From a virus: 64,000 bases of DNA. The translations under genes and the position numbers were made by a program. The stretch's first letter is position 1; each line of letters starts with the position of its first letter. The notes below the pieces were generated by a model, which saw nothing but the letters and a program-made list of their open reading frames with translations, was not told the DNA's origin and did no database searches. Below are positions 13,641 to 47,664 of the stretch, piece after piece. The stretch covers positions 1 to 64,000 of the IMG/VR virus record IMGVR_UViG_3300049596_001007; one strand, 5' to 3'.

Positions 13641-13956
13641 GCGTGCAACCGCCTCGAGCTGTTCTAGCTTTTATCCTTCTGGATATTGTCGGGTCCTTAA
13701 GGAATCCACCAGCGTAGCGTTCGTCTTCGTTTTCGCCGCCCCAAAAGCCGTGCTCATTGTTTCTTCTAGCGTATTCTCTACACTCCGTAGATACTTCACA
13801 GGCAGCACAAATTGCAGCGGCTTCCTGTTCACGTTTAGCTTTTGCCGAAGGTCTCTCAGAAATGTGGCCAAAGAAAAGATCAGACTTTCCTTTGCAACTT
13901 GCTTGAGCTAACCAGGTTGTGTCTGTGTCTATAATGCGTATTTTGTATAGTTCCAT
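13633..13956 (-). CDS. whiB: WhiB-family iron-sulfur transcription regulator
   Basis: 107 residues with the full WhiB signature: C21, C50, C53 and C59 (SCKGKSDLFF, then ICAACEVSTEC) to hold a [4Fe-4S] cluster, and GFWGG at 70-74 for binding sigma region 4. A basic Arg/Lys tail would touch DNA. WhiB proteins are confined to Actinobacteria and their phages, so this fixes the host phylum. Phage copies (for example WhiBTM4 of mycobacteriophage) can override host WhiB control. Confidence 0.93.
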   Translation of the reverse strand: MELYKIRIIDTDTTWLAQASCKGKSDLFFGHISERPSAKAKREQEAAAICAACEVSTECREYARRNNEHGFWGGENEDERYAGGFLKDPTISRRIKARTARGGCTPS

Positions 13957-30731: not shown

Positions 30732-33159
<2,428 letters not shown>

Positions 33160-33160
<1 letters not shown>

Positions 33161-33924
33161 TGGCGGCAATTACTTTTCCTGCTTCTCCGTATGTAAACCA
33201 GATTTACACTGTTGGCTCTAAGAGTTGGCAATGGGATGGAGTGGTATGGAACTCCTATTACAACGAAGCCGTTGATTCTGTTTACGGAACTGGTGCTGAT
33301 GGTGATGCTGTACTAGACGGAACCACAACAGTTCTAAGCATGGCTCCTTCTTCAAGTGTTTATTCCATGACACGGGATTTGTATTTAAATGATTTGACGA
33401 TTAATGCGAGCGTTCGTCTTGCGCCTAACGGGTATCGAATATTCGTTAAAGGCACATTGAAGTTCATGGGAGCCAACTCCATAATTGGCTACACGACTGG
33501 ATTTTCTACTGCCGGCTCAATTAAGCAAGGTGGAGGAATACTGGAAGCAGTTTCTCATTCTTTGGGTGGTGCGGCAACTGGCTACCTATCAACACTCCCG
33601 ACTGCTGCACTTGGCGGTGCTAACTATTTTAAAGTTCCTAGTCAAGCAGTAACTGGTTATTCAATAACTGCTGCAGGTGGACCAGAATTTCTTCGTGGAG
33701 GAGCAGGTGCGCTAGGTCAAGCAGGTGGAGGAATAATCATCATTGCTGCTCGTTACATTTCTGGGCCAGCAACAGGTACTGCTTATATCAAAGCTCCAGG
33801 AACTGCTCCTGCTGGAGGTGGCGTGATTCTTATTGTATCTTCTGCCGAAGCATTGGCCGCTGGAATTACTACTGATGTGACTGGGCAAAACGCAGGCACC
33901 GTCCACTACATGTCGCAGGTGTGA
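33160..33924 (+). CDS. fibre or adhesin protein, beta-rich
   Basis: 254 residues. Starts with ITFPASPYVNQIYTVGSKSW and AVDSVYGTGADGDAVLDGTT. Its N-terminal half is homologous to the start of the next protein (DSVYGxGxDGD..., then NGYRIFVKGTLKFMG versus NGFRVFVRNTLMLDG). The rest is Gly/Ala-rich beta structure (GGGIIIIAARYISG), like phage adhesin repeats that trimerise. Likely part of the fibre complex. Confidence 0.7.
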
Positions 33925-33925
33925 T

Positions 33926-35653
33926 ATGCCAATCTTACGAATAGAAAAAAGTGTTGCAAGAGCAGCAAACGATTCCGTATATGGTTTGGGAATTGATGGT
34001 GATGTCACGGTTTCCTCGGTCGTTACCTTGACTTCAGACATGTTTTATAATTCGCTAACAATTACCTCATCAGGGGTATTGCTAACAAACGGATTTAGGG
34101 TGTTCGTCAGAAACACGTTGATGCTGGATGGACACATGGGGATAGGTTCCGTTTCTGGTGAAACTGTCAGTCCTTCAGCCACTGTTGTTACAGACGGAAC
34201 AGTTAAGGGTCATTCGCAGGGTGTAATAACATACAGAGCAGGTGGTCAAGGTGGAGGAGCATCGGCTCCCACTATTCCACAACTGCCTTCGTATTTGTAC
34301 AAAAACATAAATATGATGCTTTCGGGAATCATGGTCGACACCACTGGGACAATCGTTCCCGTGGGTGGTGGCTCAAAAGGAAACGCTGGTGCTACGGGCG
34401 CAACAGGTGCCTCTGGTGCTTCTGGTGCTACTGGTGATACGGGAACACCGAGTACAACCCCAGCATCATGGCCTGGCAAGGCGGGCGCTGTTGGCTCTAA
34501 TGGAGGGTACGGACCTAGCGCAAGTACGGTCAATGCACCTGGAGGAAAAGGCAATCCTGGAGCAGATGGTTCAGCAAACCCTACCGCCCCAGGCGGAGCA
34601 GGAGGTACTGGAGGGGCAGGCGGTGCTGGAGGTGCTGGTGGGGCGGGAGGTTCAGGAGGAAATGGTGGAGGAGTAGTTCTTGTGGTTGCCAAGACAATCT
34701 TGGGAGCGGGAAAGATAATCTCTATTGGTAGTCACGGTGATTCTGGTTCTGCTGGAAGTCCTGGAAGTTCTGGTTCTGCTGGAAGCTCTGGTTCTGTTGG
34801 AACACACGTACCCAAAGGAGCAAACGGTGCAAACGGAGCGGCTGCACCTACTCGCACAGACCACCACCATGTTGCCCCACATGTAAGCCACGCCCCTAGA
34901 ACACATAATCACCATAACCATACGACAAGACACTCTGACCGACATGGTCATGCAGTAAAACCGCATAGGCATCAAAATTTTGGTAAATTTATAGGCTCTG
35001 GTGAGGTTGAAGATTCTCACTGGCATCACGGGGGACACTTCCATCATCCACACAATGATGGTCCACATGGTGGCGTACATCACTGGGATGGGCATTACTG
35101 GCATGCGTGGTTCCCGCACTATATCCATGCGTATGGGTCCTGGCAGCATTATCCGCTACACGACCATAAAAAACCAAACGGTCACCACAGTCATGCTGAA
35201 CCATCAGGCAATGGACACCACCACAACCTGTATTATCACGGCTCTTTCGGTGGTCACGATGGGCATACCCATTTTCATTTCGGACATCCAGGGCATACAC
35301 ACACGCATGCACCTACTTTGCCTACTTCCCAGGCTGATTACCATCACCACACTACGAGTAGCGCTAACCCAGATGCTTCTGCACACTATCTAGGCGGTGC
35401 TGGCGGAGTAAACGACGGTGTAAACACAGGCGCAGGAGCACCAGCAAGAACTGGTGGAACTGGAGCAACTGGAGCAACAGGAGCAACTGGGGCAACAGGA
35501 GCAACTGGAGCAAACGGTGGAGGCGGAGGCGGTGGTGCGATATTGGTTGTATCAGATGCCGTTGCTAATACAATTGTATACGATACAACAGCAGGGTCAT
35601 ATGGTACTGTAGGTGCTACCACTGGCTCGGCATACTTACTCATCAACTCATAG
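33926..35653 (+). CDS. glycine-rich fibre with an extended histidine-rich region
   Basis: 575 residues. The N-terminus is paralogous to the 33160 protein. Glycine-rich blocks (GGAGGTGGAGGAGGAGGAGG near residue 230) and G-A-T triplets follow. Residues about 310-488 hold roughly 50 histidines by my count, many as H-x-H (HTHFHFGH, GHTHTHA). The end is GATGATGAT triplets and a beta-rich cap. H-x-H repeats in phage fibre tips (T4 gp37) bind iron inside a trimer, so a long metal-filled stalk is a reasonable model; the length here is far greater. A metal-storage role or a wall or surface-binding role is also possible. Confidence 0.75.
   Translation: MPILRIEKSVARAANDSVYGLGIDGDVTVSSVVTLTSDMFYNSLTITSSGVLLTNGFRVFVRNTLMLDGHMGIGSVSGETVSPSATVVTDGTVKGHSQGVITYRAGGQGGGASAPTIPQLPSYLYKNINMMLSGIMVDTTGTIVPVGGGSKGNAGATGATGASGASGATGDTGTPSTTPASWPGKAGAVGSNGGYGPSASTVNAPGGKGNPGADGSANPTAPGGAGGTGGAGGAGGAGGAGGSGGNGGGVVLVVAKTILGAGKIISIGSHGDSGSAGSPGSSGSAGSSGSVGTHVPKGANGANGAAAPTRTDHHHVAPHVSHAPRTHNHHNHTTRHSDRHGHAVKPHRHQNFGKFIGSGEVEDSHWHHGGHFHHPHNDGPHGGVHHWDGHYWHAWFPHYIHAYGSWQHYPLHDHKKPNGHHSHAEPSGNGHHHNLYYHGSFGGHDGHTHFHFGHPGHTHTHAPTLPTSQADYHHHTTSSANPDASAHYLGGAGGVNDGVNTGAGAPARTGGTGATGATGATGATGATGANGGGGGGGAILVVSDAVANTIVYDTTAGSYGTVGATTGSAYLLINS
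34855..35390 (+). other. histidine-rich coding segment
   Basis: CAC/CAT codons dominate about 180 codons, with aromatic residues (Trp, Tyr, Phe) in between. This is the His-rich part of the 575-residue fibre and has no similarity to the flanking Gly-rich blocks. Confidence 0.9.
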
Positions 35654-35664
35654 AGGAGACAAAC

Positions 35665-35892
35665 ATGGACTACGGTATAAGTGCACAACAAAAAAACTAT
35701 ATACTGCAAAGCAGTTTAGCAAATGTTAAATCAGAGATTTACCATTTGCTTCTTCGTTCAGGTATTGACCCAGATACTTTTGACCCAGAAAACTATACTA
35801 TGGCTGAAATTCTCATAGGCGAGCAACAGAGACTAGAAACTCTCTTGAAAAGCGTGGAATTGATTAACAGAAAAGTAGCCGAGATTGAATGA
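35665..35892 (+). CDS. small hypothetical protein (75 aa)
   Basis: GAGGAG before the ATG. Helical, with LRSGIDPDTFDPENYT in the middle. The gene at 39146-39352 encodes a relative (GRDPDTLDVDVF, then a helix ending in E-I/Q). The pair bracket the oxygenase-halogenase genes, which suggests duplication or a two-part assembly. Function unknown. Confidence 0.6.
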   Translation: MDYGISAQQKNYILQSSLANVKSEIYHLLLRSGIDPDTFDPENYTMAEILIGEQQRLETLLKSVELINRKVAEIE

Positions 35893-36287
35893 AACGGTTT
35901 GTTTGCGTCCCACTTAGTATGAGGGATGTACCAGATGAGGCAACGGAATTGTCAAGAAAGTCTCAACTGGCAATTCGCATGGAAAAGGGTATTGATAAAA
36001 TCTGTATTATGTCATTTCCGGAAAACGACATTGCCGACTGTATGGATGAGGTAAGAGCAGGCTTCATACACAAAGTGGACATTACAAATGAATTTGTAGA
36101 CTTTCCAAAGGATACTCATATGGAAGTAATGGACTTAAACTTTTTTACCCAAATTATAAAACCAACGGTAAGAACAAAAAATCTGCTTATGTTTCGTTCA
36201 CGACACCTCACGCTAGGATTGCATCGGTTTCGCATTGCTGCCGACAACAACGATGCCTACTACGAGGGAGAGTTTACCGTAATATGA
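35889..36287 (+). CDS. hypothetical protein (132 aa)
   Basis: ATGA-coupled at both ends, so part of one transcriptional unit with the oxygenase. Alternating alpha/beta (KRFVCVPLSMRDVPDEATEL, KICIMSFPENDIADC, FRSRHLTLGLHRFRIAAD). No known motif. Perhaps a structural partner of the neighbouring enzymes. Confidence 0.6.
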   Translation: MKRFVCVPLSMRDVPDEATELSRKSQLAIRMEKGIDKICIMSFPENDIADCMDEVRAGFIHKVDITNEFVDFPKDTHMEVMDLNFFTQIIKPTVRTKNLLMFRSRHLTLGLHRFRIAADNNDAYYEGEFTVI

Positions 36288-36865
36288 AACACACGAAACT
36301 GGGGACATGCATATCGCTTTACGAAGATGTTTTTACCGAAAATAACGCAAGCAAGTTTTTGCAAAAACTAGAAAAAGAAACAGACTCCGACTGGTCAGAA
36401 TTATCATGGGACGGCTCTACCGTGGGGGCTGGAAAATCAACATCGCATAGAACTTCTTTAAATTGCACTCTCATCCCGCTAATGAAGCCATACCCAGAAA
36501 CTGAATTGTCGCAGTTTTTTACAGAAAAAATTCGTGGGCCTATTGAAGAAGTCTCGGAAGACTACAGGTATGAATTTTTACTTTCAAGCGCCATGCATGA
36601 AGCGTACTCTCTTTTAAAGTATTTAGAACAATCTGAATACAAACCACACTATGACCACGGCCCAGACAACCGTAGGGTTTATAGTATGGTGTCATTTTTA
36701 GCCACGCCAGAAGAGGGTGGTCAATTGGAGTTTCCGCATTTTGATGTTACTGTCGAAGCAGTATGCGGAAGGGTTCTGATGTTCCCATCAAACTTCCCAT
36801 ATCTACATATTGCACACCCTGTAACCAAGGGTGTAAAGTACTCACTTGTTACTTGGTATCAATAA
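36284..36865 (+). CDS. prolyl-hydroxylase-like Fe(II)/2-oxoglutarate oxygenase
   Basis: 193 residues. The facial triad is H122-x-D124 (KPHYDHG) and H175 (YLHIAH), with K185 in VTKGVKYSLVTW as the 2-oxoglutarate anchor; the spacing is that of the P4H/PiuC type. FLATPEEGGQLEFP is the usual loop of the fold. Such enzymes hydroxylate prolines or other side chains. Collagen-like fibres (G-P-T repeats) are encoded 3-5 kb upstream and 5 kb downstream, so fibre hydroxylation is an attractive inference. It ends 10 bases before the halogenase start. Confidence 0.8.
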   Translation: MKHTKLGTCISLYEDVFTENNASKFLQKLEKETDSDWSELSWDGSTVGAGKSTSHRTSLNCTLIPLMKPYPETELSQFFTEKIRGPIEEVSEDYRYEFLLSSAMHEAYSLLKYLEQSEYKPHYDHGPDNRRVYSMVSFLATPEEGGQLEFPHFDVTVEAVCGRVLMFPSNFPYLHIAHPVTKGVKYSLVTWYQ

Positions 36866-36875
36866 TGGGAGCCCA

Positions 36876-38369
36876 ATGAGAAACCGTATACAAAACTTTG
36901 GAGTAGTAGGTTCTGGTACTGCTGGATTAATAACTGCACTCATTTTACGTAGGGCCTTTCCTGCTTGTAGAATAACAGTATTGTCATCTTCCAAGATTGG
37001 CATTATTGGGGTAGGTGAAGGCTCTACAGAGCACTGGAAACAGCTCATGGAGTTAGTCGACATCCCCCTTGAGGAAATGTTGATAGAGACATTGGCTACC
37101 CACAAATACGGAATTCGTTACGAAAATTGGACAACACATACAAAGGACTACTTTCATAGCGTGGGTCATGTGGATGACATTTTTTGTCACGGCCTTTTTG
37201 CGGGATATATGGGAATTATTGAGTCTGGGAAAATGTTGACAAGCCAAACATCAACTGTCGGCATGGTGCGAAATAAAATCAGAAAAGAAAACCTACACAA
37301 AAACACTAATCAGTTTCATTTTGACACAATTAAGCTTAATGAGTACTTTACGAAATTGGCTTTTAAAAGAAGCATCAAGTTTGTCGATGGAGAATTTGAA
37401 TCTGTCACAAAAGACGAAGACGGGCTCATCAGTTCGGTGCGCACCCAACAAGGCGACATAATTGAAGCTGATTTTTGGTTTGATGCCTCTGGTTTTAATA
37501 AAGTTTTAATTAATGAAATCGGCAATGTAGAGTGGAATTCCTTTAGTGAGTTTTTGCTTTGCAACTCAGCCATACCTTTCCCAACAGAGAGCGACCCCAA
37601 TGGACAAATTCGTCCGTACACCCGTGCTCGTGCAGCATCTTCTGGGTGGATGTGGGAAATACCGACACAGGAACGAAGAGGTAACGGCTATGTTTTTTGT
37701 GATGCCTTTATCTCGGTAGAAGAGGCTGTTCGGGAAGCAGAACAAATGTCAGGGTACAAACTTCCTGATGACCCAAGAGTAATCAAGTTTGACGCTGGGC
37801 ATCTTAAAGAGCCTTGGCAAAAGAATTGCATTGCTGTGGGTTTGGCTTCTTCGTTTGTAGAACCATTAGAAGCAACCAGCATTGGTTCTACAATTCAACA
37901 GGTGCGAAATGCTATTCCGTATCTTGCGTCGTATCTTCCATCGCACACCGCTTCTCAAAAACACTACAATAAGAGTTCGCATGAGATGATGCGTAATATC
38001 TTGACAATGATACGAATGCACTACTACAGCGATAGGCAAGATTCAAAGTTTTGGCAGGAAATGTTTCACATGCCAGTCAACTCAGAATTGCAAGAAATAA
38101 TTGAGTTATGGTCTGAACGTCCACCTAGTAGATATGATTTTACCGCTAATCACGGAGAAATGTTTAGTGCTCCTCACTTGATACATGTTGGGCAAGGGCA
38201 GGGAATTATTAGCATAGATGCATGCACAAGAGCAATCGAGTCGCTCAACTTGCGTGGACCTATAGACAAACAATTAGGCGATTACAAGCACGATAGACAC
38301 GACCATGTATTAGTTGACCATGCTCAAGCATTGCAGGAAATCAAACTGATAGATGAGGAGTGGGACTAA
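36876..38369 (+). CDS. tryptophan-halogenase-like FAD-dependent enzyme
   Basis: 497 residues from the ATG at 36876; an earlier in-frame start at 36846 lies inside the oxygenase gene. Halogenase signs: G-x-G-x-x-G at 12-17 (GSGTAG), GEGSTEHW, a Lys in ATHKYGIRYENW (K77) at the place of the PrnA catalytic Lys, W-x-W-x-I-P at 257-262 (WMWEIP), and SSFVEPLEATSIG near 324-336 with the expected Glu. These flavin enzymes make hypohalous acid and chlorinate or brominate tryptophan or indoles. Related genes are known in cyanophages. No flavin reductase is seen nearby. Substrate unknown. Confidence 0.87.
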   Translation: MRNRIQNFGVVGSGTAGLITALILRRAFPACRITVLSSSKIGIIGVGEGSTEHWKQLMELVDIPLEEMLIETLATHKYGIRYENWTTHTKDYFHSVGHVDDIFCHGLFAGYMGIIESGKMLTSQTSTVGMVRNKIRKENLHKNTNQFHFDTIKLNEYFTKLAFKRSIKFVDGEFESVTKDEDGLISSVRTQQGDIIEADFWFDASGFNKVLINEIGNVEWNSFSEFLLCNSAIPFPTESDPNGQIRPYTRARAASSGWMWEIPTQERRGNGYVFCDAFISVEEAVREAEQMSGYKLPDDPRVIKFDAGHLKEPWQKNCIAVGLASSFVEPLEATSIGSTIQQVRNAIPYLASYLPSHTASQKHYNKSSHEMMRNILTMIRMHYYSDRQDSKFWQEMFHMPVNSELQEIIELWSERPPSRYDFTANHGEMFSAPHLIHVGQGQGIISIDACTRAIESLNLRGPIDKQLGDYKHDRHDHVLVDHAQALQEIKLIDEEWD

Positions 38370-43249: not shown

Positions 43250-44188
43250 ATGGGTTTGGATTTTGCTCTCGGTTCGTCGGCGTTGTTGCCTGCTGGCTTG
43301 GGGTTTCGTAACGTTCTAATTAACGGTGATTTTAGGGTTTGGCAACGTGGTACTTCAATCACGGTAACTACTGGTTCACCTTATACAGCCGATAGGTGGT
43401 GTGTCACGCCAGGGGGAACTGCCAACTTTTCTGCATCCCGTCAAACAGCAAGCCTTGATGGTTTTCAATATTGTTTGAGACTTCAACGTACGGCATCCAA
43501 TACAAACACTTCGGCACTTTATTTGAGCCAACCTGTTGAAACGGTAACTTCGATTCCTTTAGCAAATAAACAAGTTTCTTTTTCTTTTTATGCTAGGGCT
43601 GGAGCAAACTTTTCTGCTGCAAGTTCTGCTTTGAATGTTCGTCTTGTCACGGGGACTGGAACGGATGGCAACTATCTTGCCGCAACCCTTACTGGTCAGG
43701 CTATACCGTTGGATACAACAGCAACGCTTACTACATCTTTCCAGCGTTTTACATATTCTGTATTTGTTCCTTCGGGGGTGAATCAAGTGCAACCCGTATT
43801 TTTTTACACTCCCGTTGGTACTGCTGGTGCTAATGATTATTTTGATGTTACGGGTGTGCAGTTGGAACAGAATTATTCTTCAACCCCGTTTGAGCAACGC
43901 CCTATCGGTGTAGAACTAGCATTATGCCAAAGGTATTACTGGAAACACAGTTCCTCTGCTGGTATTTCTTATCTATCATTTCAGTACGCAGGAACACAGT
44001 ATAGATTGACAATCCCCAATCCAGTACAGATGCGCATTAACCCTCATACAGTTACTACTTCTACATGGCAGGGTGGGACTACTCCGTCTTTAGGTGCAGC
44101 CAATGTTCTTTCAACCAACTGGTCAACAACTGGTGGCTGGTATTATGCAGACGGTTCAACTTCTATTGAAATAAGTGCGGAGTTATAA
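43250..44188 (+). CDS. receptor-binding fibre C-terminal protein
   Basis: 312 residues. GFRNVLINGDFRVWQRGTS opens a jelly-roll domain and [19 protein letters not shown] closes it, as in the last 370 residues of the 30762 fibre. It seems to be that domain as a separate gene without the collagen stalk. Likely host-surface carbohydrate binding. The first 80 bases share the T/G-rich codon bias of the previous gene. Confidence 0.8.
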   Translation: MGLDFALGSSALLPAGLGFRNVLINGDFRVWQRGTSITVTTGSPYTADRWCVTPGGTANFSASRQTASLDGFQYCLRLQRTASNTNTSALYLSQPVETVTSIPLANKQVSFSFYARAGANFSAASSALNVRLVTGTGTDGNYLAATLTGQAIPLDTTATLTTSFQRFTYSVFVPSGVNQVQPVFFYTPVGTAGANDYFDVTGVQLEQNYSSTPFEQRPIGVELALCQRYYWKHSSSAGISYLSFQYAGTQYRLTIPNPVQMRINPHTVTTSTWQGGTTPSLGAANVLSTNWSTTGGWYYADGSTSIEISAEL

Positions 44189-47183: not shown

Positions 47184-47664
47184 CTCCTTTAGACGTCTTA
47201 GACTTCTTTGAAGTCTTACTTGCGTGGTACGCGTCTACTGCATTTGCGCTTGTGCGACTTCTCCATGTAAATTCGCACTCACCGCATACAACAAGCTTCA
47301 TTGTTTTCCAGCGGCCACCTTCCGGTGAGTCTGCTACAATAACGCTAAGCTTAGAAGGCCGTCCACCGCATGCTGGACAATTTGGAAATCTTTGTCTACG
47401 AATTTCTTGTCCAGTGTGCGACACAGACAACGCTCTGCGAATTTCTCCTTCGTCTTTTCCGCCCCACACGCCGTGAATTTGTTTGTTTTCAAGAGCGTAC
47501 TTTAGGCAGTCTAGACGCACATCGCAGGTAAAGCACAGGTTGCGGGCGGTGTACTTTTCATTTGGAATGCTAGAAAAAAAGAACTTTCGTATATGCTTAT
47601 TGACAGGCTTTACGCACTCAGCGTTGTCTTGCCAGCCGACGTTGCTTAACCCTTTTTTGTTCAT
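47137..47664 (-). CDS. WhiB-like protein with extra zinc ribbon
   Basis: 175 residues. WhiB signature C17, C44, C47, C53 (LCFTCDVRLDC) and GVWGG at 65-69. After it comes an extra ribbon, CPACGG (near 95-100) and CGECEF, then a Ser/Lys tail. It is larger than usual WhiB proteins (80-130 residues). Redox-sensing regulator bound to sigma in Actinobacteria; the added ribbon may bring a second nucleic-acid contact. ATGA-coupled to the upstream 112-residue gene. Confidence 0.85.
   Translation of the reverse strand: MNKKGLSNVGWQDNAECVKPVNKHIRKFFFSSIPNEKYTARNLCFTCDVRLDCLKYALENKQIHGVWGGKDEGEIRRALSVSHTGQEIRRQRFPNCPACGGRPSKLSVIVADSPEGGRWKTMKLVVCGECEFTWRSRTSANAVDAYHASKTSKKSKTSKGASPFQSDSDSDSATE

Follow-up and report, generated by a model that had tools for sequence, protein, structure and literature searches.

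The fibre gene and its genomic context

The DNA analysed here (the window, 64,000 nucleotides) comes from a viral record of 86,020 bases and contains an ORF for a 575-aa protein, the parts and neighbours of which are listed in Table 1. Residues 310-488 of this protein (coding bases about 34853-35389) contain 50 His in 179 aa (28%). Only 4 of its 54 His lie elsewhere, and the background over 28 other ORFs of the window is 209 His in 11,784 residues (1.8%), which gives a binomial probability of about 1e-44. A previous sequence-only reading of this DNA had remarked on about 50 His in some 180 residues and on an abrupt switch from Gly-rich blocks, and our counts bear out both observations: the Gly-rich sequence ends sharply at 34850 (...GANGANGAAAP/TRTDHHHVAPHVSH..., with the slash at the border) and resumes as sharply at 35393 (...AHYL/GGAGGVND...). 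The His-rich segment, referred to below as the tip, also contains 5 Trp, 8 Tyr and 7 Phe.

Table 1. Coordinates of the fibre protein, its predicted parts and associated genes, in positions of the window
Feature	Position	Strand	Basis or remark
Upstream partner/paralogue, 254 aa; has a base domain of similar kind but hardly any stalk and lacks the His tip	33160..33924	+	38% identity self-match
His-tipped fibre protein, whole ORF	33926..35653	+	575 aa; relatives found
N-terminal domain, mostly beta (predicted), conserved motif TLTSDMYYNNLTV..TNGFRVFV	33926..34363	+	Alignments, AlphaFold2
Gly-X-X strand S23, inferred outward	34364..34513	+	Length covaries with other strands
Conserved turn PSASTVNAPGGKG, inferred distal	34514..34552	+	Conservation
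Gly-X-X strand S4, inferred inward	34547..34672	+	Length covariation; AlphaFold2 pLDDT 82-95
Base beta segment VVLVVAKTILGAGKIISIG	34673..34729	+	Predicted strands E250-260, E263-266
Gly-X-X strand S5, inferred outward	34730..34849	+	Length covariation, boundaries
His-rich tip, residues 309-489, 50 His	34850..35392	+	His count; 8 related tips compared
Gly-X-X strand S6, inferred inward	35393..35536	+	Length covariation, boundaries
C-terminal base beta segment AILVVSDAVANTIVYD... and protein end	35537..35653	+	Predicted strands E538-543, E551-553, E568-573
Conserved 75-aa downstream gene	35665..35892	+	tblastn matches in most family loci; no confident Pfam match
Conserved 132-aa downstream gene	35889..36287	+	tblastn matches in many family loci; no Pfam match
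2OG-Fe(II) oxygenase (PF13640), HxD present	36284..36865	+	Domain match, motif
Tryptophan halogenase (PF04820), GxGxxG and WxWxIP present	36846..38369	+	Domain match, motifs
WhiB-type regulator genes, two	47431-47634; 13714-13914	minus for 13714-13914	Support actinobacterial host

The assignment of this protein as a tail fibre, also made in the sequence-only reading, is supported indirectly, by weak matches through the Gly-X-X repeats to PHROG families annotated as tail fiber protein or collagen like minor tail (phrog_8745, 6320, 5073, 1806 and 366), by collagen-like tail-fibre genes that neighbour the fibre gene, and by a related phage genome from a lake, which has a comparable fibre module. 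The window protein scored 24.3 bits against PF01391 (Collagen), short of the gathering cut-off of 27.2, and PF01391 matches at E <= 0.01 were obtained for 17 of the 45 members of the fibre family described below. Pfam revealed little else in the family besides collagen repeats, and no PHROG or Pfam model found covers the architecture of base, stalk and tip. Two further fibre genes of the window, at 30762-33002 and 43250-44188, both match phrog_4492 (tail fiber protein) in a C-terminal region that they share, and the fibre module thus contains duplicated parts.

The gene order around the fibre is strongly conserved. A paralogue-like gene lies directly 5′ of the fibre in 45 of 45 family loci, and in the loci that extend far enough downstream the fibre is followed by a halogenase (33 of 33) and a 2OG-Fe(II) oxygenase (31 of 33), which suggests a modification cassette linked to the fibre. 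Just beyond this cassette, the ORF at 40154-41392 matches the Na+/H+ exchanger family PF00999 (E = 3.7e-33), an unusual gene in a phage.

WhiB genes were found in 8 of 12 family records, this genome included (7 of the 11 others have at least one), and in a control set of 14 genomes only Corynebacterium glutamicum was positive. Their presence points to a virus of an actinobacterial host. Over 64% of its length, the primase shows 82% identity to the record of Actinomycetia phage DSL-LC01, the genome of which was assembled from Dishui Lake metagenomes (PMC10611076).

A family of fibre proteins with a His-rich insert

Relatives were sought in viral contigs with the protein and then with its alignment, and the best 80 of 300 candidates were taken, which favoured close relatives. 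Once identical proteins had been removed, at least 54 distinct full-length members remained, the window's own sequence included, and among the matches listed all 54 carry, at one and the same position between Gly-rich segments, an insert rich in His. Members on so many contigs rule out an accident of one genome or assembly. In the 45 aligned members the tip measures 60-242 aa and contains 18-66 His; with an earlier set of anchors the lowest His count was 17.

When 50,697 phage records were searched by tblastn with the protein, its tip and three relatives, no match to any named phage was obtained, although the BLAST low-complexity filter may hide the tip in such a search. Cellular genomes gave none in a first scan and later a single match, in a Phycisphaerae MAG, where a short contig shows the two-gene layout of the family but a His-poor tip. 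Likewise, the distant relatives L110 and L111 share this layout and the Gly-rich backbone, but their tips contain little His, and in L112, which has that layout and backbone too, the tip is intermediate. The His-poor tips of L110 and L111 indicate that the His tip is a trait of a large clade and not of the backbone fold.

Four Gly-X-X strands that lengthen in lockstep

The Gly-X-X strands range from 24 to 98 residues across the family, and their lengths change together. Over the 45 aligned members, S5 = 0.98 x S4 + 2.1 (Pearson 0.93) and S6 = 0.95 x S4 + 0.7 (Pearson 0.95), and tip length was uncorrelated with the length of any strand. The standard deviation of S4 minus S6 was 3.3, whereas 10,000 shuffles gave 14.6 on average and never less than 8.7; because many of the aligned members are related and not independent, the shuffle p-values should not be taken at face value. 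The cleanest case of lockstep, which is independent of the correlation statistic, is provided by the pair L106 and L096. These two proteins have the same 120-aa tip with 43 His, and their four strands differ by +45, +42, +42 and +42.

The simplest way to account for segments forced to equal length is that they pack alongside one another. We infer a chain path that leaves the base along S23, turns and comes back along S4, forms a beta hairpin in the base, runs out along S5 into the tip and returns to the base along S6, an arrangement that would place the tip at the far end of the stalk. Judged by their sequence and by analogy with S16 gp38, the strands are probably polyglycine-II-like (PGII) helices. 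A metal-loaded stalk, as the sequence-only reading had put it, thus probably has the wrong location, since the stalk corresponds to the Gly-rich part and the His-rich segment sits on top of it. What is new here is the anatomy, co-lengthening Gly-X-X strands that carry a tip. The lockstep provides direct sequence evidence for a tunable stalk, whether or not metal is involved, as well as a marker by which adhesins of this kind, tips included, can readily be picked out in viromes.

AlphaFold2 models were consistent with an ordered base and stalk. For the window protein (18 sequences, monomer) mean pLDDT was 52.6, with most Gly strands at 82-95 and the N-terminal domain at 75-89 over residues 31-80; a short relative (45 sequences, monomer) reached a mean of 79.5, with the Gly strands and base mostly at 90-97 and the N-terminal domain, in a relative, at 91-97. 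A predicted disordered region had been named beforehand as an outcome that would weigh against a metal-holding segment, and the tip did score below 50 (23-35 in the window protein, about 40 in the short relative), but these are scores of metal-free monomers modelled from shallow alignments, so that this expectation is only half borne out. Foldseek found no solved structure resembling base and stalk, and for the first model searched against viral predictions it returned only low-TM collagen-like matches. Profile and tip searches of PDB sequences gave no relevant match to solved fibre tips.

Composition, conservation and exchange of the tips

The inserts sort into about 17 sequence types. Their mean His content is 25.7%, as compared to 0.5% for these proteins outside the tip, and every type has at least 17% His. 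Trp and Tyr are present in many types and Trp is absent from several. Vicinal Cys pairs occur in some, and over the 17 types Cys-Cys was seen 8 times versus 0.6 expected (z = 10). On average I, L, V, M and F together make up 8-10% of the tip, which makes an ordinary hydrophobic core unlikely.

The many H-x-H pairs pointed out in the sequence-only reading are present (16 in the window protein), but they are no more numerous than in shuffles of the same composition (13.7 +/- 2.6, p = 0.24) and are thus attributable to the His content. The same was found over the 17 tip types, with 185 seen and 182.4 expected (z = 0.3), and the H-x-H pair is thereby ruled out as an organising motif. H-H spacings over these types were also at the level given by composition, with mild enrichment only at wider spacings (5-7 residues), reflecting repeat units. 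The arms of the tip lengthen pairwise, with HSA[VT]IHxP units present as 1+1 or 2+2 and, in other relatives, NPHH/HH[TSN] units as 4+4; such paired growth suggests a hairpin.

The sequence of the tip is under constraint. Where dS could be estimated, dN/dS was about 0.1-0.2 in backbone and tip alike, and of the 45-46 His retained between the window and distant relatives, 27-30 differ silently (CAT/CAC). Purifying selection therefore acts on the protein sequence, and because the codons of retained His differ silently, a simple expansion of a DNA repeat is excluded. Among 8 related tips 23 of the 50 window His are invariant, as compared to 22 of the 131 other residues (Fisher p = 1e-4), and these 8 tips of the main group, carried on divergent backbones, have 45 invariant positions, including the motifs PHNDGPHGG, WHA, KPNG and GGHDGHxH. 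This rules out an unconstrained hypervariable loop within the main tip group. PHNDG is present in some form in 30 of the 45 members, and the tips of the remaining 15 are equally rich in His plus Cys. These observations support the view that a His-dense segment of a fibre protein is conserved and under selection.

Tips and backbones do not share a single history. In some pairs of members the N-terminal domains are 70-74% identical, yet the tips are no more alike than shuffled sequences; in other pairs the N-terminal domains are about 50% identical, yet the tips are 70-76% identical. Exchange of tips and strongly differing rates of change may each have a part in this pattern; a specificity module fits either. 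None of the new loci read in a tip-only search had a tip on a backbone of another kind. Contact of the tip with a receptor, as the sequence-only reading had suggested, fits the exchange of tips between backbones, and it is from this exchange together with the distal position that we infer contact with the host surface.

A putative metal-organised tip and its alternatives

Taken together, these results are consistent with a phage adhesin in which a beta-rich base would carry a stalk of four co-registered strands running out, back, out and back, with a length that varies between phages, and in which the tip, inserted between the third and fourth strands, would be displayed at the far end. The tip, always largely His together with Gly, Pro, Asn, Asp, aromatics and sometimes Cys-Cys pairs, would owe its shape not to a hydrophobic core but to bound ions of a transition metal (Zn, Fe, Cu, Ni or Mn). 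Its sequence would then be free to diversify and to be exchanged so long as the density of ligands is kept, and the metal-organised tip would contact the surface of the actinobacterial host. To this reading as a whole we give an even chance. Putative metal coordination is the best explanation because His density is kept across unrelated tips and Cys-Cys pairs occur in some of them, and a metal-loaded tip is likewise the best available reading of the conserved His, the silent codon swaps and the low hydrophobic content. Several points speak against a metal tip: AlphaFold2 predicts no fold for it; H-x-H pairs and H-H spacings are at composition level; His can also serve in proton sensing or in sugar or aromatic contacts; and the fold does not require a His tip, as the backbones of L110 and L111 carry His-poor ones.

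If 3-4 ligands are allowed per ion, the 50 His of the window tip may, at a guess, correspond to some ten ions or more in each chain. That the family represents a new class of viral adhesin, with metal ions replacing the core of an exchangeable tip and a lockstep stalk setting its reach, is a possible but more doubtful extension. If true, a metal-built tip would allow receptor-binding diversity without dependence on a conserved core, the hosts concerned would be abundant, hard-to-culture actinobacteria of freshwater type, and the tip would be far more densely packed with His than the phage tips for which a role as metal carrier has been proposed to date. The question of phage metal could in that case be tested with one recombinant protein.

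Alternatively, the same stalk and tip may present His in a metal-free state, as a polar, aromatic and imidazole surface, perhaps switched by pH, that binds wall glycopolymers or other receptors. The invariant motifs, which contain conserved residues other than His, resemble a binding surface, a choice among receptors would agree with the exchange of tips, and Trp and Tyr occur in many tips. However, several of the 17 types keep their His content without any Trp, and a metal-free surface leaves unexplained both the Cys-Cys pairs and the fact that His richness is the sole trait common to tips that otherwise differ. We regard this alternative as unlikely, though worth keeping in view.

The tip could instead be an intrinsically disordered, multivalent sticky brush and not a folded domain, comparable in composition to the His-rich proteins of mussel byssus and worm jaw, which coacervate or are cross-linked by metal. 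Low hydrophobic content, low pLDDT and the retention of composition while sequence changes across tip types would all be expected of such a brush, and mussel preCols offer a precedent in which collagen-like or Gly-rich rods are joined to Zn-coordinating ends of about 20 mol% His (PMC6477608). These are animal structural proteins, and the likeness is a functional analogy with no sequence relation claimed. Invariance of 45 positions over the main-group tips on divergent backbones is more order than a brush needs, and the paired repeats of the arms suggest a hairpin, which together make a brush improbable.

The conserved oxygenase and halogenase, with their catalytic motifs present, raise the question of whether the tip or the neighbouring collagen-like fibres are their substrate, giving virions with hydroxylated or halogenated residues. 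As loci with Trp-less tips keep the halogenase, Trp of the tip is ruled out as a general halogenase substrate. Moreover, DSL-LC01 has a halogenase together with collagen-like fibres and no His-rich fibre, and cyanophages carry relatives of the halogenase. We consider this role of the cassette very improbable as an account of the tip.

Least probable of all is a needle of the T4 gp37 type, in which three intertwined chains would hold a line of octahedral H-x-H iron sites and possibly take advantage of siderophore receptors, as the Ferrojan or Trojan horse hypothesis has it, since H-x-H is not enriched, no sequence match to solved structures was found, the model of the short relative is confident for base and stalk with one chain only, and WhiB points to an actinobacterial host. 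To our knowledge, the outer-membrane siderophore receptors of the Ferrojan hypothesis are not expected in such a host.

Comparison with known fibres

For stalk and base, the closest functional analogue is the single-chain adhesin gp38 of Salmonella phage S16 (PDB 6F45), which has ten short PGII motifs, short loops and distal segments that determine host range (PMC6851490). The window protein would resemble it in a beta base whose turns extend lengthwise as Gly-rich strands, with variable segments at the distal end of a single chain. The family differs from gp38 in its roughly four long strands and its one very large His-rich tip (60-242 aa). Homology to gp38 was not detected: hhalign gave a probability of 0.3% over 12 columns, and Foldseek returned no match.

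The T4 gp37 long-tail-fibre tip, invoked in the sequence-only reading, holds seven H-x-H irons in a trimer and its His are essential (PMC6957217). Its distal domain is formed as an insertion (the tip being an insertion in an insertion), and its needle is held by iron; the window fibre, in contrast, has 50 His per chain, a Gly-rich stalk and no H-x-H enrichment. As the H-x-H, sequence and fold tests all fail, gp37 is not a relative, and the analogy survives only as a precedent in principle for a metal-dependent fibre tip. In Alteromonas phage R22Y, six H-x-H iron sites have been predicted in gp12 (PMC11705849), a further proposal that tail-fibre His bind metal, and one that could favour a T4-type needle; these sites are few and regularly placed in a trimeric fibre, which has no exchangeable tip dominated by His.

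Within the family itself, the most extreme member seen is a relative of 1,122 aa (L117:4004-7369) with 95 His and many internal repeats in its tip, and L110, L111 and L112 form a useful outgroup for the origin of His tips.
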